Source of the DNA: Bacillota bacterium
GTDB lineage: Bacteria; Bacillota; Clostridia; Peptostreptococcales; Anaerovoracaceae
DNA length: 64,000 bases
Assembly (NCBI GenBank): GCA_017394515.1
Contig: JAFPXY010000029.1
Coordinates: 1-64,000 of the forward strand
Reading direction: 5' to 3'
Shown here: in pieces, positions 24,175 to 36,788 of the stretch
How the letters are laid out: each line of letters begins with the position of its first letter
How positions within the stretch are numbered: the stretch's first letter is position 1
Position numbers and translations under genes: made by a program
Notes under the pieces: generated by a model
Told to the model about the DNA's origin: nothing
Database searches by the model: none
Seen by the model: the letters and a program-made list of their open reading frames with translations, nothing else

Positions 24175-25938
24175 ATGAGCAAGTTCCATATGACATGGGA
24201 CATAGACAATATATATAAAGGCTTTGAAGACAAGGAATTTAAAGGCGCAGTGGAGAAGGCCGGGGGAGAGTTTTTTGCGCTCTCCAAGAGCAAAGAAATT
24301 ACGGACGCTTCGGAACTGGCTGAGAAACTCGGCAGATTCCATGAGGCGGCGCTTTTGTTTTCAACGCCTGAGACCTACTTAAGCATGTGGAAGCGGACTC
24401 ATGAGTCCGATGATGGCTTAGGATCTGCGGAAAAGATCATCGGCGACACAGCCCTTTTAAAGCAAAAGGCTTTATCCAAAATAGAGCACGATCTGGCAAA
24501 CTTCGCTTTAACTAGACCCAGCGAAGAGGATCTTAAGGAAAGCGGACTCTTGCCCTATAGATACATGATAGAGGAGAGTATGAGGCTTGCCTCCCACAGA
24601 CCGGCGCCTGAGATCTGGGATATGATGCTCAGTAAGCGCGAAAAGGGAAGCAAAGTTTGGGCAGAACTCAGGAACACCCTGGATGCTAAAGCTGAGGTCA
24701 AAGTCCCGCTGCCTGAAGGGGAGAAGATACTTTCCCTTGCCCAGGCAAGAGCGCTCCAGTCTTCCGGCGATCCGGACATCAGGAGGATCGCCTATGAGGC
24801 CGAGATAGCCTCATACCCTTCATGGGAAGGTCCTATGGCGGACTGTCTGAACGGCATAAAGGGTGAAGCTATCGATGAATTAGCACCTAAAAAATACGAT
24901 TCCGTAAGGGACGAGATGCTGGATATCAACAAGATGAGCCAGGCCACTCTGGATGCTCTTCATGAGTCCATCGAGGCCCATCTGCCGTCCCTTAGAGATT
25001 ATCTTAAGACGAAAGCAAGGATCCTGGGATGTAAGAAGGGCTTACCTTGGTATGACCTGGGAGCACCGCTTTCAAGAGAAGAAAATAGTATTAGCTATGA
25101 CACCGCTCATGATATCGTAACGAAAGCCCTGGGGGACTTTTCCCATGAACTGGGGGAGCTGGCTGAGAGGGCCTTTGACTCTCGCTGGATCGACGCACTT
25201 CCGAGAAAAGGCAAATACAGCGGCGGCATCTGTTACGACATTCCTGCCTTAAAAGAAAACAGGATAATCGTCAATTACAATGGAAGTCTTCACGACGTGC
25301 TGACCGTGGCTCATGAACTGGGTCACGCGTACCACAACCGCCAGCTGGATGAGGCTCCTTTTATCCTGAGAGATGTGCCAACGCCCATCTGTGAAACGGC
25401 GTCTCTTTTCAATGAGACCATAGTTTCAGAGGCTCTCAGGAGGGAGCAGATCGACTCTGTAAAACTTCTGGATACGGAGCTCACGGAAGCTGTCCAGACG
25501 GTAATGGATATCTACAGCCGCTATCTCTTTGAGGACGCCTTCCTAAAGGAGAGGGCTTCCCGCAAACTTGCTTCATCTGAGATCTGCAGCCTCATGGTGA
25601 AGGCTCAAAAGAGAGTTTTCGGATATGCCCTGGACGCATCATGTCTCCATCCATATATGTGGATGAACAAGGTCCATTACTACATACCGGGATTTCACTA
25701 TTACAGTTATCCATACTATTTCGGAATGCTCTTATCCAAAGGACTGTATTCAAGTTATCTGAAGGATAAGGAACATTTCCCTCTCAAATACAAAGCTTTC
25801 TTAGAAGCCAGCTCAAGGGCTTCTATTGAAGACGTTGCTTCTTTTGCAGGAATAGACGTTACTTCGACGGAATTCTGGGACGGCGCATTATCACAGATCG
25901 ATGCCAAATGCGAGGAATTCTGCTCTAAGGCAATTTGA
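24175..25938 (+). CDS. M3-family oligoendopeptidase
   Basis: 587 residues, cytosolic. The zinc motif HELGH lies at residues 380-384, with the downstream Glu about 25 residues later in ETASLFNE. Length and the C-terminal HYYSYPYYFGMLLSKGLY fit the M3B/PepF group. It cleaves imported oligopeptides and begins 3 bases after the CDF gene, so it belongs to the same transcript as the peptide transporter. A second, only distantly similar M3 enzyme is encoded at 41786. Confidence 0.9.
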   Translation: MSKFHMTWDIDNIYKGFEDKEFKGAVEKAGGEFFALSKSKEITDASELAEKLGRFHEAALLFSTPETYLSMWKRTHESDDGLGSAEKIIGDTALLKQKALSKIEHDLANFALTRPSEEDLKESGLLPYRYMIEESMRLASHRPAPEIWDMMLSKREKGSKVWAELRNTLDAKAEVKVPLPEGEKILSLAQARALQSSGDPDIRRIAYEAEIASYPSWEGPMADCLNGIKGEAIDELAPKKYDSVRDEMLDINKMSQATLDALHESIEAHLPSLRDYLKTKARILGCKKGLPWYDLGAPLSREENSISYDTAHDIVTKALGDFSHELGELAERAFDSRWIDALPRKGKYSGGICYDIPALKENRIIVNYNGSLHDVLTVAHELGHAYHNRQLDEAPFILRDVPTPICETASLFNETIVSEALRREQIDSVKLLDTELTEAVQTVMDIYSRYLFEDAFLKERASRKLASSEICSLMVKAQKRVFGYALDASCLHPYMWMNKVHYYIPGFHYYSYPYYFGMLLSKGLYSSYLKDKEHFPLKYKAFLEASSRASIEDVASFAGIDVTSTEFWDGALSQIDAKCEEFCSKAI

Positions 25939-25969: not shown

Positions 25970-26509
25970 ATGAAGAATATAGGTTTTACTTACAACAGTA
26001 CAATTTGCGTTTCCTGCGGAGGCTGCCAGGTGGCTTGTCAGTCGTCTCACGGCTTAAATGCCGATGAGTTCTACCGTCGTGTAGTTATCATCAGTGACGA
26101 AAAGGGCCAGTCCCACGCATACTCCGGAAGCTGCAATCATTGTGAAGAACCTGCCTGCGTTCAGGCCTGTCCCACAGGAGCCATGTATGTGGACGAAAAA
26201 GAAGGCGTGGTCCTCCACGACGATGGCATCTGCATAGGCTGTGGTTGCTGCGTCTGGAACTGTCCTTACGGCTCGGTTTCCATTAGCTTAAGCAGGGGTG
26301 TTTCCCAGAAGTGCAACAGCTGTATTGAGCGCCGTGCAGAAGGTCTCGCACCTTACTGCGTAGCTGCTTGCCCCATGAACGCTATAGGCTGGAGAGATCA
26401 CGAAGAAGGGGAAGGCTGGGAGAGACTTTCCGCATCCTTTTTACCTTCTCCGGATAAGACCCTTCCCACGACCCTCGGAAAGTTCAGAAGAGGAGGTGAG
26501 GAGGAATGA
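25970..26509 (+). CDS. Four-cluster ferredoxin-like electron-transfer subunit (DmsB type)
   Basis: 179 residues from the ATG at 25970, where the family's N-terminus begins. Four cysteine groups are visible in order: CVSCGGCQVAC (residues 13-23), CNHCEEPACVQACP, CIGCGCCVWNCP and CNSC...YCVAACP. These bind four 4Fe-4S clusters, as in DmsB-type subunits of molybdoenzymes. It has no Tat signal. It should pass electrons between the FAD oxidoreductase and the molybdenum subunit encoded next. The stop overlaps the following ATG by four bases. Confidence 0.92.
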   Translation: MKNIGFTYNSTICVSCGGCQVACQSSHGLNADEFYRRVVIISDEKGQSHAYSGSCNHCEEPACVQACPTGAMYVDEKEGVVLHDDGICIGCGCCVWNCPYGSVSISLSRGVSQKCNSCIERRAEGLAPYCVAACPMNAIGWRDHEEGEGWERLSASFLPSPDKTLPTTLGKFRRGGEEE

Positions 26510-27678
26510 AGAAACGCTACGTCATCATAGGTGCAGGCATCGCGGGTATCACCGCAGCAGAAACCATTAGGTCTCTGGATCAGGACGGAGAGATCATGAT
26601 CTTTTCAAATGAAAAGGAACTTCCATACTCCCGCCCCATGCTGAGCAAGTCGCCGCTTCTGTCCCTGGGGCTTAAATCTTTTGCGCTCCATGATGAGGAG
26701 TGGTACAGGGAGCAGAATATCGATCTTAGACTGGGCGTGAGCGTCGATAAGCTTGATGTGGAGGAGCAAAACATCCTCGCAGGAGGCCGATCCATAAGCT
26801 ACGACAAGTGCATCATCGCATCAGGCGCCTCCAACTTCATCCCGCCCTTTAAGGGAAGGGAAGAGGTGGATATCTGCGATATCCGTAAAATTTCCGACCT
26901 CAAGCATCTGAGAAGACTGGCTTTCCCGGGAGGAAAGGCCGTGGTCATCGGAGGCGGAGTAATAGGCCTTGAAATGGCAGCGGAGATAAGAAGATACGGC
27001 ATGGAGGTCACCGTGCTTGAAGCTATGCCAAGACTCATGCCGCGCTTAATAGATGAGAGAACATCAGACTTGCTTACTGAGAGACTTCCCTTTGAAGTGT
27101 TCACAGGAGTCAACATCCTTAAGCTGAGCCGAAAAGGTGAGGAAACGGTCATTGAAGATGATCAGGGCCGCAGCTGGAACTGCGATCTCCTCATAGTATC
27201 CTGTGGAGTGCGGGCAGACGTAAGCCTTGCACATGACGCGGGCATCGCATGTAACAGAGCCATCATGGTAAACCAGAAGATGGAGACCTCAGCCAAGAAC
27301 GTCTATGCCTGCGGAGACTGCGCGGAGTTCGAAGGTTTTAACGCTGCTCTTTGGGGCGAAGGCCTTGCTCAGGGCGAAGTTGCAGGACGAAATGCAGCAG
27401 GAGATGAGAGCATCTATACCGGATGCGACACTTCACTGGTGATGATGATGGACGATCTGGGACTCTTTTCCATGGGAGACCTGGGACAGACCGGCGAAGG
27501 TTATGTCATAGAAGAGAGAGAATGGCAGCCTGAAGCCAGACTTCTCATCGACCCCAGAAGGCCGGAGAAGGAGGGCTTCAGCCGCAAGATATTCAAGGAT
27601 GGCAAGCTTGTCGGAGCCGTTTTGATAGGAGATCTTACATCCATGAATGAGATCAAGGAAGAGATCTTAGGAAGGTGA
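26506..27678 (+). CDS. FAD-dependent NAD(P)H oxidoreductase
   Basis: 390 residues. An FAD-binding Rossmann motif GAGIAGITAAE begins near residue 8, an NAD(P)-binding motif GGGVIGLEMAAE near residue 147, and the second FAD motif VYACGDCAEF near residue 267. It is related to rubredoxin and nitrite reductase flavoproteins. Its overlap with the Fe-S gene and position before the molybdoenzyme suggest it feeds NAD(P)H electrons into that complex, in place of the quinol-linked membrane anchor (DmsC) of classical DMSO reductase. That role is inferred from context. Confidence 0.88.
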   Translation: MKKRYVIIGAGIAGITAAETIRSLDQDGEIMIFSNEKELPYSRPMLSKSPLLSLGLKSFALHDEEWYREQNIDLRLGVSVDKLDVEEQNILAGGRSISYDKCIIASGASNFIPPFKGREEVDICDIRKISDLKHLRRLAFPGGKAVVIGGGVIGLEMAAEIRRYGMEVTVLEAMPRLMPRLIDERTSDLLTERLPFEVFTGVNILKLSRKGEETVIEDDQGRSWNCDLLIVSCGVRADVSLAHDAGIACNRAIMVNQKMETSAKNVYACGDCAEFEGFNAALWGEGLAQGEVAGRNAAGDESIYTGCDTSLVMMMDDLGLFSMGDLGQTGEGYVIEEREWQPEARLLIDPRRPEKEGFSRKIFKDGKLVGAVLIGDLTSMNEIKEEILGR

Positions 27679-27684
27679 TTTGTG

Positions 27685-30471
27685 ATGACCAATGGTGAAA
27701 ATCTGATACGCTGGCATGCACTGCATGAGTTTTTCGAGGGCCTCCATGAGTGGAAGAAGGCTTCCGCCCTGGTGGGTCTTAACGAAGATATCAGTTTAGA
27801 AGAATACGAGCGCCTTCTCATGGGAACAGATGCGGACACCTACGTGCCTCTCTGGGCTTCAGCATGCCTTTCCGGAGAGGACATTCTTCTTAATGAGATC
27901 ACCCTGGAGGTGATCAAATACTACAAGCAGTTCGGCTACAGGCCTGTGCGCATGGATGGCAACCCTCCCGACTACATCGGCGAGCAGTGCCGCTTTATGG
28001 AGTATCTCTACGCTTCTTCGGAAGACATGGAAAGCTGTGAGAACCAAGAAGCCGAGGAATTCCTGGACAGGTTTCTAATGCCTTGCGCATACAAGCTGGC
28101 CGAATGCGCAAAAAACTACAAATTCGAAGATAATTTAATAAGCGTCGTCAATCTTTTGCTGGACTCAGCCAAAGGTAAAGACGTAGCTGTGTTTTATGAT
28201 GCAATAGATATTGAAGAGTTAAAGCGCAGGCGAGGAGAAGCTATACCTCTAGACTCTCTCCATACTGTAAGCCACGTGAGTTTCTGTGATTGCGGTAACA
28301 AGTGCAAGATGCTCTCCCAGGTCCAGGAGGGATGCGTATTATCCATTCTTCCAGACAAGGATTTCATGGGCAAGAGCTTTGCTGGCTGTCCCAGAGGACT
28401 GGCCTACCGCAGCACCTTCCTTTCCTCTCATCGCCTGCGCTATCCCATGATGAGAGTAGGGGAGCGAGGTGAGGGCAAATTCCGCAGAGTCTCATGGAGC
28501 ATAGCGGAAGACTATGTGGCCCGGGAGGTAAAGCGCACCCGCGAAAGCTACGGACCTGAATCCAGGTTCGTGCTTCCTGCTGCAGGAAACTGCGCGCTGA
28601 TCAGAGGAGACCGCCTCATCAAGCATCTCTTAAACATAGACGGAGGCTCTCTGGATTTCTATAATTTCTACAGTGCTTCATGTGCTGAGCATATTTTGCC
28701 CTACATTTACGGAACTTTATTCTGTGGATCTGCCGAAGAGCATCTTAAGGAGAGCAAGCTTCTGATCCTTTGGGGACATAATCCTGTGGCTACTCATTTC
28801 GGGGATCAACATGCTGAAAGTATAATAGCCGCCAAGGAAAAGGGCGCGAAGGTCATCGTCATCGATCCGAGACGTACGGATACGGCGGAGCTTTTCGCCG
28901 ATGAGTGGATTCCCATCAGACCAGCTACGGACGGTGCTCTGTCTGATGCCATGGCTTACGAGATACTGAGCCGCGGCCTGGAAGATCGAGATTTCATAGA
29001 CAAGTTCTGCATAGGTTTTGACGAGGAGCACATGCCGCCCGGCGTTCCCTATGGTGAAAGCTACAAAAGCTATCTCTACGGTGTCAAAGACGGAATCGTA
29101 AAGAACGCCAAGTGGGCTGAGCCCATAACAGGCATCCCCGAGAGCAAGATCATATCTCTTGCCATAGAATTCGCTACCACCAAACCTGCATGCCTGCTGC
29201 CCGGACTGGGTCCTCAGCGCACCCTCTCAGGAGAGCAGGCCACCAGAAGCCACGCCATGCTGGCCTGCCTTACCGGAAACGTAGGAAAGATCGGCGGCGG
29301 AGCAGGGGCTATAAACTATATCAAGGACGGATATCTTCCTGCCTTTAGCTTTGCATGGAAGGAAGTCGCCGATCAGGCGTCCATCCCAAGCTTTATCTGG
29401 ACCAGAGCCATCGAAAGCCCTGAGACCATCACACCCAAGGATGGCCTTCTCAATGCTGAGAAGCTCAGCACCGGAATAAAGCTCATATTCAGCCTGGCAA
29501 GCGGAATCCTCCTTAATCAGCATTCGAATATAAACGAAACTGCCAGAGTCCTTAAGGGGCCTGATCTTGAGACCCTCATAGTTTCAGATATACTGATGAC
29601 TCCGGGCTCGCGCTTCGCAGATCTGCTGCTTCCGGGAGTATCATTCTTTGAGACTGAGAACATCATGTTTTCCTGGTCCAGCGCAGACTACATGCTATAT
29701 AACAGGCAGGCCGTAGAGCCGCTTTTCGGAAGCCTTTCGGAGTTCTACTGGATCCAGGAGGTCGCAAGACGCCTCGGTCTTCAGGAGGAATTCAACGATG
29801 GAAGGACTGATTCCCATAACACTTGGATAGAGAAGCTCTACGAAGACCACAGAAAGGCCAACGAGGGATATTTTCCTGACTTCCATACTGTAAGAGAAAA
29901 TGGAGGTCTGGTACTTCCTGCCGTGGAGCGTGACGCTGCTTTTGCAAAAAATATCAAAGAGGGAATTCCCTTCGATACGCCCTCGGGCAAGATAGAGATC
30001 TTCTCCGAACGCTTATATAAAGGCGATCAGCTGCCGGGAATTCCTTGCTATACGCCAATCGAAGAAGGCGCGGAACAGGCCGGAAGCGGTCCATATCCAC
30101 TTCAGTTGATCGGCTATCATTCCAAGAGACGCTGCCACTCCATCGGTGAAGGTAATTCTTATCTGAATAAGCTGGAACCACCCAGAGTCTGGATCAATCC
30201 CCTGGACGCTTCTAAGAGGGGCATATCAAACGGCGAGATGGTGGAAGTCTACAACGCCAGAGGAACCGTCAAAATAGAAGCCTTAGTCACCGAAAACATA
30301 GTAAACGGCGTGGTGGCCATGAGCGAAGGCGCATGGTATGCACCGGACGAGAAAGGAAGAGATAAGGGAGGCTGCATCAACGTGCTCACCATGACCCACA
30401 GGAATACTCCTTTCGCTCACGCCAATCCACAGCACACCAATCTGGTGGAAGTGAGAAAGGCGGAAAACTGA
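27685..30471 (+). CDS. DMSO-reductase-family molybdoenzyme with N-terminal TorD-like chaperone domain
   Basis: 928 residues from the ATG at 27685, which follows GGAAGG by 8 bases; a GTG one codon earlier is less likely. Residues 1 to about 165 are helical and resemble TorD/DmsD maturation chaperones (PPDYIGEQCRFMEYLY, EEFLDRFLMP). The catalytic part begins near residue 190. Cluster cysteines are near 201, 203, 207 and 235; a YSASC segment near residue 330 aligns with the Ser that ligates Mo in DMSO/TMAO reductases. The C-terminus (GGCINVLTMTHRNTPF) is typical of the Ser-ligated branch. No twin-arginine signal is present, so it works in the cytosol, probably reducing an S-oxide or N-oxide. Substrate unknown. 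Confidence 0.85.
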   Translation: MTNGENLIRWHALHEFFEGLHEWKKASALVGLNEDISLEEYERLLMGTDADTYVPLWASACLSGEDILLNEITLEVIKYYKQFGYRPVRMDGNPPDYIGEQCRFMEYLYASSEDMESCENQEAEEFLDRFLMPCAYKLAECAKNYKFEDNLISVVNLLLDSAKGKDVAVFYDAIDIEELKRRRGEAIPLDSLHTVSHVSFCDCGNKCKMLSQVQEGCVLSILPDKDFMGKSFAGCPRGLAYRSTFLSSHRLRYPMMRVGERGEGKFRRVSWSIAEDYVAREVKRTRESYGPESRFVLPAAGNCALIRGDRLIKHLLNIDGGSLDFYNFYSASCAEHILPYIYGTLFCGSAEEHLKESKLLILWGHNPVATHFGDQHAESIIAAKEKGAKVIVIDPRRTDTAELFADEWIPIRPATDGALSDAMAYEILSRGLEDRDFIDKFCIGFDEEHMPPGVPYGESYKSYLYGVKDGIVKNAKWAEPITGIPESKIISLAIEFATTKPACLLPGLGPQRTLSGEQATRSHAMLACLTGNVGKIGGGAGAINYIKDGYLPAFSFAWKEVADQASIPSFIWTRAIESPETITPKDGLLNAEKLSTGIKLIFSLASGILLNQHSNINETARVLKGPDLETLIVSDILMTPGSRFADLLLPGVSFFETENIMFSWSSADYMLYNRQAVEPLFGSLSEFYWIQEVARRLGLQEEFNDGRTDSHNTWIEKLYEDHRKANEGYFPDFHTVRENGGLVLPAVERDAAFAKNIKEGIPFDTPSGKIEIFSERLYKGDQLPGIPCYTPIEEGAEQAGSGPYPLQLIGYHSKRRCHSIGEGNSYLNKLEPPRVWINPLDASKRGISNGEMVEVYNARGTVKIEALVTENIVNGVVAMSEGAWYAPDEKGRDKGGCINVLTMTHRNTPFAHANPQHTNLVEVRKAEN

Positions 30472-30472
30472 A

Positions 30473-31051
30473 ATGGATGTTTCCAAGGTGAGCGGATGCG
30501 TCCTGGCAGGAGGCTCTTCCAAAAGGATGGGCACCGATAAAGCCCTGCTGAAGCTTGGAGATAAGACCTTCCTGGAGATACAGATAGATAAGCTTAAGAG
30601 CATGGGCATCGAGGACATCCTCTACGTGAGAGGTGAAGATGTGGAGGTGCCGGGAGCCAGACGAGTGACCGATCTTTATCCTGAGAGAGGTCCCTTAGGA
30701 GGAATACACGCAGGACTTCAGGCCTGCGAGAACAATTGCTGTCTCTTCCTCGGAGTAGATGTGCCTCTGGTTCCGGAGGACTTTCTCAAGGAACTCATAG
30801 TACGACACGCATCAGGGATCACCATAGCTCAATCAGAAGGATACGACGAGCCCCTCATAGCCATCTATGACGCCGAACTTGCGGATGTGATACCGCCACT
30901 TATCAAGGATCACGGCGCGCCGGTGCGTGAACTGTTTAAATATGCGCCGCTCCGCCGGGTTCCATACACCGGGCCCGAAGGCCTTCTTAAAAACTGCAAT
31001 ACCCCAGAGGATTATGCTGAAACCTGTCAGACTTCCAAGCAATACTTATAA
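30473..31051 (+). CDS. mobA: Molybdenum cofactor guanylyltransferase MobA
   Basis: 192 residues. The nucleotide-binding start LAGGSSKRMGTDKALL (residues 11-26) and the GVDVPLV metal site identify MobA, which joins GMP to molybdopterin. It begins one base after the molybdoenzyme stop, so the enzyme and the last step of its cofactor are made together. MobB is encoded 16 kb upstream. Confidence 0.92.
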   Translation: MDVSKVSGCVLAGGSSKRMGTDKALLKLGDKTFLEIQIDKLKSMGIEDILYVRGEDVEVPGARRVTDLYPERGPLGGIHAGLQACENNCCLFLGVDVPLVPEDFLKELIVRHASGITIAQSEGYDEPLIAIYDAELADVIPPLIKDHGAPVRELFKYAPLRRVPYTGPEGLLKNCNTPEDYAETCQTSKQYL

Positions 31052-31057
31052 AACCAT

Positions 31058-31079
31058 AGCGCAGGCCTAAGCCTGCGTT
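31058..31079 (+). repeat. Intergenic hairpin CGCAGGC/GCCTGCG
   Basis: A 7-bp perfect stem extended by one G-U and one A-T pair, with a CTAA loop, in the 71-base gap between mobA and the next gene. No T-run follows. It is too short to be the known molybdenum-cofactor riboswitch. Possibly an mRNA processing or stability element. Confidence 0.5.
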
Positions 31080-31122
31080 AGCCACATTACAGATCTTTTA
31101 GGGAAAGTTCACGGGAGAAAAA

Positions 31123-32142
31123 ATGAAACTCATAGATACCAAAGATGCCGTAGGGCAGGTGCTCTGCCACGACATTACACAGATAATAAAGGACGTGAAG
31201 AAAGGCCCTGCCTTCCGCAAGGGACACGTCATAACCGAGGCTGACATAGACCTGCTGCTGTCCCTTGGGAAGGAGCACATCTACGTCTGGGAAAAGGACG
31301 AAACCATGCTTCATGAAGATGAAGCCGCCCAGATCCTGGCGAATATTTGCATGGGCCATAACACCTATCAGAATCTGCCTTCAGAAGGTAAGATCGAGAT
31401 CTTCAGCAACATGGATGGCGTGCTCAGAATAGACAGAGAGGCCCTTATGGCCGTAAACACCATGGACAGGATGATGATCGCTTCCCGCCATGGAGACCGA
31501 CCCATCAAGAAGGGCGACAAGATCGCAGGCACCAGGATAATTCCCCTGGTGATCGAAAAAGATGTCATGAATACGGTCAAGACCCGGGTCGGAAACCTTA
31601 AAATATTCAATGTCGAGCCTTACATCCCTAAGAAGGTAGGTATCGTTACCACGGGAAACGAGGTCATGTACGGAAGGATTGAAGATACCTTCACGCCGGT
31701 GGTAAGGGAGAAGGTCACCGAATACGGAGCGACCATCTTGGGAGAAAAGATCTCCGGAGACGATCCTGAGATGATCATCTCGTCCATCAGGGAGCTCCTT
31801 GATAAAGGCGCGGAGATGATTTTTTGCACAGGAGGCATGAGTGTGGATCCTGACGACAGGACGCCTCTTGCCATAAAGACAGTTGCAGATGAGGTGGTGA
31901 CCTACGGAGCACCTGTGCTTCCTGGAGCCATGTTCATGCTGGGATATATCGACGGGGAGATACCCATCATGGGACTGCCCGGCTGCGTAATGTACGCGGG
32001 CCGCACCATATTTGATCTGGTCCTTCCCAGGATCATGACGGGAGAGAAGATTACCAGAGAGATATTTGACTCATACGGTGAGGGAGGACTTTGCCTTGGG
32101 TGCAAAGTATGCAACTTCCCCAACTGCGGATTCGGAATATAG
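31123..32142 (+). CDS. MoeA-like molybdopterin-binding protein with C-terminal cysteine cluster
   Basis: 339 residues. The C-terminal half is a MoCF-type molybdopterin-binding domain (GIVTTGNEVMYG near residue 175, FCTGGMSVDPDDRTP, GLPGCVMYAG). The N-terminal 160 residues lack the MoeA motif SPYDGYAV seen in the 13207 gene. It ends with five cysteines in about 20 residues (CLGCKVCNFPNCGFGI is the last part), which looks like a metal or Fe-S site. It may be a cofactor carrier or insertion factor specific for this island; function is inferred. Confidence 0.8.
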   Translation: MKLIDTKDAVGQVLCHDITQIIKDVKKGPAFRKGHVITEADIDLLLSLGKEHIYVWEKDETMLHEDEAAQILANICMGHNTYQNLPSEGKIEIFSNMDGVLRIDREALMAVNTMDRMMIASRHGDRPIKKGDKIAGTRIIPLVIEKDVMNTVKTRVGNLKIFNVEPYIPKKVGIVTTGNEVMYGRIEDTFTPVVREKVTEYGATILGEKISGDDPEMIISSIRELLDKGAEMIFCTGGMSVDPDDRTPLAIKTVADEVVTYGAPVLPGAMFMLGYIDGEIPIMGLPGCVMYAGRTIFDLVLPRIMTGEKITREIFDSYGEGGLCLGCKVCNFPNCGFGI

Positions 32143-32145
32143 ATT

Positions 32146-33099
32146 ATGATCGATAACTTTGGGCGCAAAATAGAATATATGAGGATTTCTGTTACGGATC
32201 GGTGCAATCTTAAGTGCAGATATTGCATGCCCCATGGAATAAAAAAGATACCCATGAGGGATATTCTGACCTACGAGGAGATCATATCCATAGCTGAAGC
32301 GGCCGTGGACCTTGGCATAAACCGTTTCAAGCTTACAGGAGGAGAACCTTTGGCCAGAAAGGACATCGGAACTCTGGTGGAGGGTCTTAAAGGCATACCG
32401 GGGACTGAAGAGGTCACCCTGACCACCAACGGTGTAATGCTAATGGACCACTTGGACGAGCTCATAGAGGCCGGACTCAACGGGGTGAACATATCCATCC
32501 AGTCTACGGACTCTGACCGTTATGGTGGGATCACGGGCGGAGGCGACCTGGAGAAGGTACTGAGAGCCATAGTAGCGGCGTCAAGGAGTCCGCTCAAGGT
32601 CAAGCTGAACTGCGTTCTCCACAGGGACATAGAAGATGAGGATGTAACAGGTCTCATAGAACTTGCCAGCGCAAATAACGTTGACATTCGTTTCATCGAA
32701 ATGATGCCCATCGGCATGGGTAAGTCCTGGAGAGGGATGGATAGAGAGAAAGTCGTAAGAGTGATCGAAGATGAATTCGGGAAGCTGGAACCCTTAGACG
32801 GCCGAAGGGGAAACGGACCTGCCAGGTATTACGGCTTACCCGGAAAGGATATAGCCGTTGGCTTTATCCTTGCTTTAAGCGAGGGGTTCTGCGAGGAGTG
32901 CAACAGGGTCAGACTGGATTCCAAGGGGAAACTCAGGCCATGTCTTGGGTATTCAGAGGGCACGGACCTGAAACCCTATCTTAAGGCAGGCAAGGCTGAA
33001 CTCAGAGAAGCCATGAGAAAGGCTGTCTTAGAAAAGCCCGAGAGGCATTGCTTTAGTGAAAGGGATACTTCGGATAATATGATCTCCATAGGAGGATGA
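32146..33099 (+). CDS. moaA: GTP 3',8-cyclase MoaA (radical SAM)
   Basis: 317 residues. The radical-SAM cluster motif is Cys20, Cys24 and Cys27 in CNLKCRYC. The C-terminal second-cluster cysteines are in FCEECNRVRL and RPCLGY. The protein ends in the double Gly needed for activity in known MoaA. It carries out the first step of molybdopterin synthesis from GTP. Starts 3 bases after the preceding stop. Confidence 0.95.
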   Translation: MIDNFGRKIEYMRISVTDRCNLKCRYCMPHGIKKIPMRDILTYEEIISIAEAAVDLGINRFKLTGGEPLARKDIGTLVEGLKGIPGTEEVTLTTNGVMLMDHLDELIEAGLNGVNISIQSTDSDRYGGITGGGDLEKVLRAIVAASRSPLKVKLNCVLHRDIEDEDVTGLIELASANNVDIRFIEMMPIGMGKSWRGMDREKVVRVIEDEFGKLEPLDGRRGNGPARYYGLPGKDIAVGFILALSEGFCEECNRVRLDSKGKLRPCLGYSEGTDLKPYLKAGKAELREAMRKAVLEKPERHCFSERDTSDNMISIGG

Positions 33100-33100
33100 G

Positions 33101-34036
33101 ATGGGAAAACTTGCAGGTATAAATATAAGTGAAAGGCGAGGCATTGCCAAAAGACCCGTTGAGAGTGCGGAGCTTTTAGAAGCCCACGGACTCAAAGGAG
33201 ATGCCCACGCGGGAAACTGGCATAGACAGGTAAGCATCCTAGGCCTTGAGAACATAGAAAGATTCAGGGAGAAAGGCGGAAAGGTGGACTTCGGAGCCTT
33301 CGGAGAAAACCTCATCATAGAAGGTTTTGATCTGAACAGCATCCCCGTGGAGACCTTGATCAAAGTCGGAGAAACCGAACTTAAGATCACCCAGATAGGA
33401 AAGGACTGTCACACTCACTGCGCCATCTACGACATGGTGGGAGAATGCATCATGCAGAGGGAAGGGATCTTTGCTGAAGTGATCAAGGGAGGAACTATCC
33501 AGGTCGGAGATCCGGTGGAAATAGAGGTTCCTTCTTATGACAGACCCTTCAGAGCGGCCAGGATAACCATGAGTGACAAGGGCTCTAAGGGTGAGAGAGT
33601 GGACACCAGCGGACCTTTGGTGGATGAGATGCTTAGGGCCGCAGGATATGAAATGGTGGAGATGATCTTGATTCCCGATGAAGGAGAATTGATAGAGAAA
33701 GAACTGATCCGCCTGTCAGATCAGAGGCAGGTTGATCTCATAATAACCACAGGAGGTACGGGATTTTCTGTAAGGGATGTGACGCCTGAAGCAACCATAA
33801 AGGCATGCGACAGGATGGCCCCGGGAATATCCGAAGCCATAAGGGCATATTCACTTACCAAGACCATCCACGGCATGCTGAGCCGAGGAGTGTCAGGTAT
33901 CAGAGGAAGGACTCTCATCATCAACCTTCCGGGAAGCGAGAAAGCTGTAAGGGAATCTTTGGAATACATACTTCCTGCTCTTAAGCATGGGCTGGAAGTA
34001 TTAAGAGGATCCGCCACGGAATGCGGCTCCAAATAA
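33101..34036 (+). CDS. MOSC domain fused to MogA-type molybdopterin adenylyltransferase
   Basis: 311 residues. Residues 1 to about 145 form a MOSC domain (GLKGDAHAGNWHRQVS, then GENLIIEG and a cysteine near residue 106 in GKDCHTHC). Residues from about 150 form a MogA/MoaB domain (ITMSDKGSKGERVDTSGP, TTGGTGFSVRDVTPEA). MogA adenylylates molybdopterin before metal insertion; MOSC domains carry sulfur or bind the cofactor. This fusion is known in Clostridia. It provides the step between MoaA/MoaC and MoeA. Confidence 0.9.
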   Translation: MGKLAGINISERRGIAKRPVESAELLEAHGLKGDAHAGNWHRQVSILGLENIERFREKGGKVDFGAFGENLIIEGFDLNSIPVETLIKVGETELKITQIGKDCHTHCAIYDMVGECIMQREGIFAEVIKGGTIQVGDPVEIEVPSYDRPFRAARITMSDKGSKGERVDTSGPLVDEMLRAAGYEMVEMILIPDEGELIEKELIRLSDQRQVDLIITTGGTGFSVRDVTPEATIKACDRMAPGISEAIRAYSLTKTIHGMLSRGVSGIRGRTLIINLPGSEKAVRESLEYILPALKHGLEVLRGSATECGSK

Positions 34037-34047
34037 AGGAGAAAACT

Positions 34048-34890
34048 ATGAAAAAAATATACGCGATCATACTGGCTATAATTATTGTCATGGGCTTTAC
34101 GGCCTGTGGCACATCTCAAGAGGGCAGCTCTTCAGGTAAAATCGAAGTCAGCGTCTTTGTGGCAGCCAGCCTTAATTCTGTAATGGAAGAATTGAAAGCT
34201 GAGTTTGAAGCTGAGCATGAGGATGTAACCATTCTCATAAACGCAGACAGTTCAGGAGTCCTCATGACCCAGATTCAGGAAGGAGCGGCCTGCGATCTTT
34301 TCTTCAGCGCGTCCCAGAAGCAGATGAATATTCTTGAAGAAGAGGGCATGCTTCTTGAAGGGACCAGGAAGAACGTCTTAAATAATAAGCTGGTGGTTCT
34401 GACTCAGGCAGACTCAGATACAGAGGTCACAGGCATCACAACTTTGGGGAAAGCTTCAAGCATCGCCCTGGCAGGAGGCAGCGTGCCTGCGGGGGATTAT
34501 ACCAGACGAGCACTGGTCCATCTGGGAATGCTCGATGAAACTGACGAACCCGGGGCTTACACCACCCAGGAAGTTTCCGACGCTTTAGGCGGAGTTGAGA
34601 TCAGTGAACAGAGCAACGTCAGCAAGGTCCTAACAGCGGTGGTCGAGGGTTCCTGCGAGGTGGGCACCACCTATCTTTCGGACACATATGGCCAGGAAGA
34701 AAAGGTCAGGATCATCGAGGAAGTGCCCTACGAGGTGACAGGAAATATCATATATCCCGCAGCCCTGATAGCTAACCCGGACGCATCTGATGAGGAAGCA
34801 AGCGCTGCGGCGGAGTTTTTTGGATTTATTACAGGTGACAGAGCAAAAGAATTGTACGCGAAGCATCTCTTTGACCCGGATGTAGAATAG
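34048..34890 (+). CDS. modA: Molybdate-binding lipoprotein ModA
   Basis: 280 residues from the ATG at 34048, which follows AAAGGAG; an upstream in-frame ATG lies inside the previous gene. The lipoprotein signal ends at FTAC (Cys20). The mature part opens with VFVAASLNSVMEEL and contains ADSSGVLMTQIQEGAACDLFFSAS split by short gaps, a clear ModA pattern. It binds molybdate or tungstate outside the cell and delivers it to ModB. Confidence 0.92.
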   Translation: MKKIYAIILAIIIVMGFTACGTSQEGSSSGKIEVSVFVAASLNSVMEELKAEFEAEHEDVTILINADSSGVLMTQIQEGAACDLFFSASQKQMNILEEEGMLLEGTRKNVLNNKLVVLTQADSDTEVTGITTLGKASSIALAGGSVPAGDYTRRALVHLGMLDETDEPGAYTTQEVSDALGGVEISEQSNVSKVLTAVVEGSCEVGTTYLSDTYGQEEKVRIIEEVPYEVTGNIIYPAALIANPDASDEEASAAAEFFGFITGDRAKELYAKHLFDPDVE

Positions 34891-34902
34891 AATTAGAAGG
34901 CG

Positions 34903-35607
34903 ATGGAAGGCATCATGGATGTACTGAGGGAGCTGGATTGGAGCCCCCTCATCATATCTCTCAAAACAGGAATAGTAGCCACCATCATATCCTTTTTCTT
35001 AGGGATATACACGGCAAGGAAGGTCATCAGATTGAAGCCCGGGACCAAGGCTTTCGTGGATGGCCTGTTTACCATGCCCTTGGTGCTTCCGCCCACGGTG
35101 GCAGGCTTCATCCTGCTTCTGATATTTTCCAGAAGGAGGGCCTTTGGCATGTTCTTAGAGAGCACCTTCGACATCAGGGTGGTACAGACCTGGACAGGCT
35201 GCGTCATAGCTGCCATAGTTATAGCATTCCCACTCATGTACAGAAATGCTCGGGCAGCCTTTGAACTCGTGGATCCTGACCTGGTAAACGCGGGAAGGAC
35301 TTTAGGAATGAGCGAGACGTCCATATTCTGGAAGGTGGTCATGCCTACGGCGGGCCCCGGCATAGCCTCCGGGACTATCCTCACCTTTGCCAGAGCCATG
35401 GGCGAGTACGGCGCCACCTCCATGATCGCCGGAAACATCCCCGGGAAGACCGGCACCATTTCCCAGAGGATCGCCCTGGTCATTCAGGACGGAGACTTCC
35501 TGACGGCAGGCATCTGGGTAATCATAGTCATCGTCATAGCTTTTTTGATGATTTTTGCCATAAACCTTATCATCAGCAAAAAATCCAAGAACGTAAGGAG
35601 ATGGTAG
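34903..35607 (+). CDS. modB: Molybdate ABC transporter permease ModB
   Basis: 234 residues with five to six helices. The permease loop (ARTLGMSETSIFWKVVMPTA near residue 130) and AMGEYGATSMIAGNIPGKT are ModB hallmarks. An AGAAGG site precedes the ATG. It forms the channel for the ModA/ModC system. Confidence 0.93.
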   Translation: MEGIMDVLRELDWSPLIISLKTGIVATIISFFLGIYTARKVIRLKPGTKAFVDGLFTMPLVLPPTVAGFILLLIFSRRRAFGMFLESTFDIRVVQTWTGCVIAAIVIAFPLMYRNARAAFELVDPDLVNAGRTLGMSETSIFWKVVMPTAGPGIASGTILTFARAMGEYGATSMIAGNIPGKTGTISQRIALVIQDGDFLTAGIWVIIVIVIAFLMIFAINLIISKKSKNVRRW

Positions 35608-35609
35608 CG

Positions 35610-36788
35610 ATGAAACTGGATCTCAATATACGTAAAACCATAGGCGATTTCAAACTGAATATGGAGTTTTCAAGCGAGGCTGATAAGATAGGGATCTTAG
35701 GAGCATCCGGTTCCGGCAAGAGCATGACTTTAAGGTGCATCGCAGGCATAGAGACACCGGACAGCGGAGTGATCACCCTGGACGGCAGGACTCTCTTCGA
35801 TTCATCTAAGAAGATCAACGTGAAGCCTCAGGATAGGGAGATAGGCTATCTTTTCCAGAACTACGCTTTGTTCCCGGCCATGACCGTAAAAGAAAACATC
35901 AGATGCGGCATAAGAGATAAGGACAGAAAAACCGATAGCGAGGTGAATACATACATAGAGCAGTTCGATCTGAAGGGCCTGGAAGGACGCTATCCTCATG
36001 AGCTCTCAGGAGGACAGCAGCAGAGGGTGGCACTGGCCAGGATCATGGCGGGCAAGCCCAAGCTGGTCCTTCTGGATGAACCTTTTTCGGCATTGGATTC
36101 ATACCTAAAGGATAAGATAAGGAAGCAGACCGTTACAGCCCTTGAAGAATCAGGCATAAGTATAATTATCGTTTCCCACGATAAGGACGATCTCTTAAGC
36201 CTGAGCGATGAGATATTCATCATTCATGAGGGTGAGGTGGTGACTGACCCTAAGACCGAAGAAGCCGCTCAGCTCATGGGCTTCAGTGAATTAAACGAAG
36301 GAGATAAGATGGAATTTACACATTTTGACAGTGAAGGAAACGCCAGAATCGTCGATGTGTCCCAGAAGGAAGTGACCCACAGGGTCGCGGAAGCTGCCGG
36401 CATCATCAAAGTAAGCCAGGAGATCATGGATGCCATACTCGGCAAAAAACTCAAAAAAGGAGACGTGTTCACCGTGGCCCAGATCGCAGGCATTATGGCT
36501 GTGAAAAAGACGCCGGAACTCATACCTTTATGCCACAGCTTGGCCATTACCAACGTGGAAGTTAAATTTGAAGTGAATGAAGAACGAAGTGAGATCGAAG
36601 CCCGCTGCAAGGTGGAAACCGATGGCAAGACGGGAGTCGAAATGGAAGCCATGACGGGCGTATCCACGGCGCTCCTCACCATCTATGACATGTGTAAAGC
36701 CATAGACAAGGGCATGATCATCAGCGATGTGAGGCTTATCATGAAGTCCGGCGGTAAAAGCGGCCTCTATGAAGAAGGCCCGAAATAA
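35610..36788 (+). CDS. modC-moaC: ModC molybdate ATPase fused to MoaC cyclic pyranopterin synthase
   Basis: 392 residues from the ATG at 35610; an ATG nine bases earlier sits too close to the AAGGAG. Residues 1 to about 230 are an ABC ATPase with Walker A GASGSGKS (31-38), signature LSGGQQQRVA and Walker B LVLLDEPFSALD. Known ModC proteins continue with a Mop/TOBE molybdate-sensing domain; here it is absent, and from residue 234 a complete MoaC follows (MEFTHFDSEGNARIVDVS, LIPLCHSLAITNVEV, DGKTGVEMEAMTG). MoaC makes cPMP after MoaA. An internal in-frame ATG with a good ribosome site at the junction may also yield free MoaC. Confidence 0.9.
   Translation: MKLDLNIRKTIGDFKLNMEFSSEADKIGILGASGSGKSMTLRCIAGIETPDSGVITLDGRTLFDSSKKINVKPQDREIGYLFQNYALFPAMTVKENIRCGIRDKDRKTDSEVNTYIEQFDLKGLEGRYPHELSGGQQQRVALARIMAGKPKLVLLDEPFSALDSYLKDKIRKQTVTALEESGISIIIVSHDKDDLLSLSDEIFIIHEGEVVTDPKTEEAAQLMGFSELNEGDKMEFTHFDSEGNARIVDVSQKEVTHRVAEAAGIIKVSQEIMDAILGKKLKKGDVFTVAQIAGIMAVKKTPELIPLCHSLAITNVEVKFEVNEERSEIEARCKVETDGKTGVEMEAMTGVSTALLTIYDMCKAIDKGMIISDVRLIMKSGGKSGLYEEGPK
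36298..36311 (+). promoter_or_regulatory. moaC: Internal ribosome site and start for free MoaC
   Basis: AAGGAG at 36298-36303, five bases, then an ATG at 36309 in frame with the fusion and exactly at the first residue expected for MoaC (MEFTHFD). This would give a 159-residue stand-alone MoaC, the family's normal length. Confidence 0.6.

Follow-up and report, generated by a model that had tools for sequence, protein, structure and literature searches.

Fused chaperone and catalytic domains in the three-gene locus

The catalytic ORF of the locus described here carries, in residues 1-185, a NarJ/TorD/DmsD-type domain in frame with a DmsA/YnfE-type catalytic domain. The best explanation for this ORF and its neighbours, and in our judgement the probable one, is that they encode a molybdenum reductase of the DmsA/YnfE branch which stays in the cytosol, is fed by NADH and has its maturation chaperone built in. 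The initial annotation of the window (the whole stretch of DNA analysed, 64,000 nucleotides) had given three ORFs, Fe-S (25,970-26,509), FAD (26,506-27,678) and catalytic (27,682-30,471), all three confirmed here, and had taken the last as a catalytic subunit, which describes its DmsA/YnfE-type domain but overlooks the chaperone formed by the first ~185 residues. The altered FS0 cysteines and the adjoining molybdenum cofactor cluster, which begins directly after the catalytic ORF, had been overlooked as well. The features are as follows:

25,970-26,509, + strand: Fe-S gene, DmsB/HydN-like electron-transfer subunit (179 aa, four [4Fe-4S] motifs)
26,506-27,678, + strand: FAD/NAD(H) oxidoreductase of the NirB/rubredoxin-reductase/AorC type (390 aa)
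27,682-28,236, + strand: NarJ/TorD/DmsD-type maturation chaperone domain, fused in frame (residues 1-185 of the catalytic ORF; PF02613)
28,249-30,468, + strand: DmsA/YnfE-type Mo-bisPGD catalytic domain (residues ~190-929; TIGR02166, PF00384, PF01568)
28,291-28,389, + strand: predicted FS0 cysteines C204, C208, C236 and, at a new position, C218; the first Cys of the classical set is missing
28,672-28,674, + strand: Ser331, the predicted Mo ligand as in DMSO reductases, which lines up with the YS of R. sphaeroides DMSOR
30,473-36,788, + strand: molybdenum cofactor and molybdate uptake genes (mobA, moeA-like, moaA, MOSC-moaB fusion, modA, modB, apparent modC-moaC fusion; Pfam/NCBIfam matches)

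The Fe-S gene start was placed at the ATG at 25,970 in preference to an upstream ATG at 25,901 by homologue alignment, in which the start and the Cys motifs were kept in relatives; 16 of the 17 cysteines lie in four ferredoxin-type motifs. Its product matched PF13247 (E = 1.8e-19), and its best NCBIfam match was TIGR02951 (DMSO_dmsB) with 130.6 bits, below the cut-off of 214.1. The FAD gene shares four bases (ATGA) with the end of the Fe-S gene, an overlap already reported in the initial annotation, and encodes Pyr_redox_2 (PF07992, E = 2.4e-58) and Rubredoxin_C (PF18267) domains; a score of 174.2 bits against the PadH model NF045765 (cut-off 475) indicated a homologue but not an equivalog.

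Three bases separate the FAD gene from the catalytic ORF (GTG start at 27,682, next ATG at 27,685, end at 30,471; 929 aa), whose catalytic domain had dmsA_ynfE as by far its best family (TIGR02166, 721.7 bits, E = 1e-216), narrowly missing the cut-off of 777.7 and thus a near neighbour; the BisC/TorA family TIGR00509 gave 367.1 bits (cut-off 1017.55). In the full model (pLDDT 86, pTM 0.88), residues 190-929 fitted TorA, MtsZ and DMSOR (Z 36-40, rmsd 2.4-2.7), and the best Foldseek match was the methionine sulfoxide reductase MtsZ. The Mo-ligand position was Ser in all of the aligned sequences (n = 96/96), ruling out an unusual ligand. This ORF was the only PF01568 protein in the genome bin.

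Residues 1-185 matched PF02613, the nitrate-reductase-delta/TorD chaperone family, with 37.6 bits against a cut-off of 22.2, and a profile built from 26 such domains matched the DmsD family when run against the PDB (E = 4.5e-4 to 1.4e-3). Foldseek and VIA searches with the full-length model gave no information on the first 190 residues, and for this reason the chaperone domain was modelled alone (AlphaFold, pLDDT 93.8). In VIA this model fitted DmsD with Z 14.4 and an rmsd of 2.8 over 158 residues; the top 11 matches all belonged to the same chaperone family (DmsD, TtrD, YcdY, NarJ and kin), and the next were unrelated helical proteins (Z 6.3). The domain has both the above-cut-off PF02613 match and the all-helical fold of NarJ/TorD/DmsD chaperones, but it is not free-standing as these are, being fused in frame in 38 distinct proteins. 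Open full-length frames free of stops in many independent assemblies excluded a fusion by chance or by assembly artefact.

A whole-bin search found no PF02613 protein besides the fused ORF. The fused domain probably still works as a chaperone; a point against this is that the conserved D-H pair of DmsD is D-Y in it. A literature search of partial coverage turned up no earlier description of a NarJ-family chaperone joined to a molybdoenzyme, a weak sign of novelty: the words 'fused' and 'fusion' are absent from a paper on NarJ-family evolution (PMC4464133), and in a review (PMC10609526) 'fusion' denotes experimental constructs only.

Probable cytosolic location

No twin-arginine motif was found in the N-terminus of the catalytic ORF, and a whole-genome search of the bin found no TatC; DmsC (PF04976) was detected neither in the bin nor among the annotated neighbour genes. 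The lack of a Tat signal and of DmsC had both been pointed out in the initial annotation. With the bin 94% complete these absences are strong, not absolute, and the bin-wide ones hold only if the contig belongs to the bin. The locus thus lacks both the Tat signal and the DmsC anchor that define membership of DmsABC, and a Tat-exported DmsABC was ruled out (no RR motif, TatC or DmsC). Among the homologues, none of the 38 fused proteins had a genuine Tat signal, whereas 50 of 58 unfused ones did. A lax hydrophobicity rule flagged two of the fused proteins (L060 and L069), neither convincingly; the start of L060 lies in a possibly over-extended ORF.

Predicted electron input from the FAD and Fe-S proteins

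The three-gene neighbourhood is conserved in relatives: among the fused loci surveyed, 17 have the Fe-S and FAD genes directly next to the fused gene. About eleven fused loci, a few of them near contig ends, had no adjoining Fe-S or FAD genes, and the input partner is therefore not obligatory in cis; in genera holding both kinds of locus, the paralogues that have no adjacent partners could draw on a triad encoded at another site. Relatives carry the modules in further natural fusions, namely FeS-chaperone-catalytic (1172 aa, L059), FAD-chaperone-catalytic (1325-1356 aa, L064, L065 and L066) and FeS-FAD (597 aa, L062), so that the four modules very probably form a single complex.

In the NAD domain of the FAD protein (GGGVIGLE...VTVLEA), the acidic residue that closes the second strand is conserved; by general rule such a residue favours NADH, suggesting NADH rather than NADPH as the donor. 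Solved relatives of the FAD protein include AorC (8c0z_E, E = 1e-26), and the Fe-S protein also matched a chain of 8c0z. The AorABC complex, whose structure is solved, is a precedent for the input half: it uses NAD, and a row of four clusters leads from its NAD-binding FAD subunit to FS0 and the tungsten (PMC10413684). A cytosolic chain from NADH over FAD, four Fe-S clusters and FS0 to molybdenum, with the electrons presumably passing in that order, is well supported by the absence of a Tat signal, TatC and DmsC, by the conserved three-gene neighbourhood and by the natural module fusions. On the same grounds the chain from NAD(P)H over FAD and four Fe-S clusters to Mo proposed in the initial annotation stands, except that it left out the FS0 cluster.

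A relocated cysteine in the FS0 region

Classical DmsA relatives hold FS0 with one leading Cys, a CG-x2-C motif and a last Cys farther along the chain. In the 18 aligned fused proteins C204, C208, C218 and C236 were invariant. C218, the Cys after an EG turn, was present in 37 of 38 fused proteins and in none of 58 unfused ones, whereas the classical first Cys was missing in 32 of 38 fused proteins and present in 55 of 58 unfused ones; the fused proteins being one clade, these counts represent few evolutionary events, and the scoring of one protein (L047) as having the first Cys hinges on the exact position allowed. Both residues occurred together in Acetitomaculum and four Synergistaceae, as would be expected of an intermediate state. 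The window protein carries a further Cys, C202, which is not conserved. The pattern suggests that C218 is a ligand of FS0, very probably a fifth cluster in the catalytic subunit besides the four in the B subunit.

Distribution and phylogeny

Within the taxonomic family, a sample of 197 genomes yielded 14 with fused relatives (~44-53% identity), the genome that holds the window not counted. A wider scan added other Clostridia, Erysipelotrichaceae (Solobacterium), the cultured Acetitomaculum ruminis DSM 5522 (L078), Synergistaceae and one bin labelled Planctomycetaceae. In a catalytic-domain tree of 92 sequences built with a quick method, all of the distinct fused homologues (n = 38/38) fell in a single clade of 40 (SH-aLRT 100), whose other two members (L081 and L098) had neither a chaperone domain nor a Tat signal. 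Bacillaceae relatives outside this clade carry the Tat signal, and at least eight of their loci have a free chaperone gene directly upstream of dmsA, often overlapping it; from this gene order the fusion could have arisen in a simple way, once the stop codon and the signal peptide had been lost. We lean towards regarding the fused proteins as a distinct, unnamed molybdoenzyme subfamily: a non-exported DmsA-type reductase with a permanent N-terminal chaperone, a relocated FS0 Cys and, as input module, an FAD/Fe-S pair fed by NADH and fused to it in several orders.

The bin labelled Planctomycetaceae holds a full triad with a fused protein (L060) that branches among Bacillota sequences, pointing to transfer or contamination.

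Cofactor genes and genomic surroundings

Two composite ORFs were observed in the cofactor cluster. One of 311 aa (33,101-34,036, + strand) combines a MOSC domain with a MoaB/Mog-type molybdopterin-binding domain, and another of 395 aa (35,601-36,788, + strand) joins ModC, the molybdate ABC ATPase, to MoaC. Among the 198 family genomes, the matches listed span only the ModC part or the MoaC part, with neighbouring matches in one genome (G050); the ORF may be a true fusion, or an indel may have joined two genes. MoaE was not found in the bin, though moaA and moaC are in the cluster, and was detectable in only 19 of the 198 family genomes, apparently fewer than have MoaC matches; molybdopterin synthase may be supplied in some other way, or MoaE may be too divergent for detection.

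Six other genomes of the genus had neither the enzyme nor MoaC, indicating that the enzyme and the cofactor pathway come and go together. The initial annotation had put the enzyme forward as a possible sink for NADH from amino-acid fermentation; since it is absent from these congeners, a core step in fermentation is unlikely. The M3 peptidase gene flanking the locus (24,175-25,938) was also absent from the six, and GC was 0.50-0.52 across 26-36 kb against ~0.40-0.47 near the window ends; a larger region may have been acquired or, less probably, the contig may be misbinned.

Some fused paralogues lacking the Fe-S and FAD genes had metabolic genes as neighbours. Next to three of them (L033, L034 and L037) are a ketol-acid reductoisomerase-like gene and the genes of a glycyl-radical enzyme and its activase; the glycyl-radical enzyme is of the PFL2/dehydratase group and scores below every equivalog cut-off. 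Others (L044 and L057) lie beside an L-serine ammonia-lyase gene.

Proposed mechanism and alternatives

In the proposed mechanism the N-terminal NarJ/TorD-like domain would hold the nascent apo-enzyme and aid, in cis, the insertion of the Fe-S cluster and of Mo-bisPGD. As the enzyme would never be exported, the domain would stand in for a Tat signal, which in an exported enzyme would be guarded by a free DmsD. The FAD protein would be reduced by NADH, and the Fe-S protein would relay the electrons through its four clusters to FS0, whose predicted ligands are CG-x2-C, C236 and C218 in its new position, and on to the serine-ligated Mo centre, where a small oxidised substrate would be reduced. 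Judging from the nearest families, this substrate would most likely be an S-oxide or N-oxide.

The same enzyme could instead serve detoxification or salvage in the cytosol, acting on methionine sulfoxide, biotin sulfoxide or oxyanions such as selenate, and not as an energy-relevant electron sink. The inclusion of the selenate/tellurate reductases YnfE/F in TIGR02166, the structural match to MtsZ and the patchy presence within the genus are consistent with such a role, but no neighbourhood gene indicates a given substrate, and we hold it as a serious though less probable possibility.

It is unlikely that the fused domain has given up its chaperone function for a structural or docking one, such as an interface to the Fe-S/FAD input module, in an enzyme otherwise as described. 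The E-x-P-x-D-H region of canonical DmsD is altered to N-P-x-D-Y in the fused family, and the domain is retained even in proteins additionally fused to FAD or Fe-S modules, both in favour of such a role. Against this, the entire fold is kept (Z 14.4 to DmsD), no second NarJ/TorD-family protein is present in the bin that could mature the one molybdoenzyme of this type there, and the related Bacillaceae retain a free chaperone gene, which lies immediately upstream and in many cases overlaps. Least probable is an oxidative direction, in which the Mo centre would oxidise an organic substrate and the FAD protein would reduce NAD+, on the pattern of AorABC or of formate dehydrogenases linked to NAD: the two partner proteins do resemble AorC and AorA of such an NAD-reducing system, but the catalytic domain is serine-ligated and its nearest relatives (DmsA/YnfE, DMSOR, MtsZ and TorA) are all reductases.

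Comparison with known systems and significance

The cytosolic, NADH-fed reductase favoured here shares with DmsABC or YnfEFGH and DmsD the DmsA/YnfE-type catalytic domain, an apparently DmsB-like subunit with four cluster motifs and a NarJ-family chaperone, but differs in the fusion of the chaperone, the lack of a Tat signal and of DmsC, the FAD/NADH protein in its stead and the relocated FS0 Cys. With the tungsten aldehyde oxidoreductase AorABC of Aromatoleum aromaticum it has in common a four-cluster Fe-S and an NAD-binding FAD subunit on a soluble pterin-metal enzyme, whereas the catalytic subunit of AorABC is an unrelated AOR-family tungsten enzyme with no chaperone domain. Cytoplasmic NarGHI likewise is a Mo-bisPGD enzyme of the cytoplasm helped by a NarJ-family chaperone, and NasBC-type NADH nitrate reductases have in NasB a NirB-type flavoprotein donor; in these systems, however, the chaperone is separate, the substrate is nitrate and the catalytic subfamily is another. 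The S- and N-oxide reductases BisC, which is cytosolic, TorA and MtsZ have the same fold and serine-ligated Mo, but to our knowledge they lack an FS0 cluster and have no comparable Fe-S or FAD partner.

Work on NarJ/TorD chaperones deals with free-standing proteins, which tie the insertion of cofactors to export by Tat, and a natural fusion in a non-exported enzyme separates these two roles. It would also let the chaperone-client complex, hard to trap so far, be studied at a fixed 1:1 ratio, while the cysteine swap is a natural experiment on FS0 ligation. The arrangement is common to a whole overlooked branch of DMSO-reductase-kind enzymes, and its presence in a gut-type anaerobe suggests how fermenters of the gut and rumen that have no Tat system or DmsC anchor could reduce S- or N-oxides with NADH.
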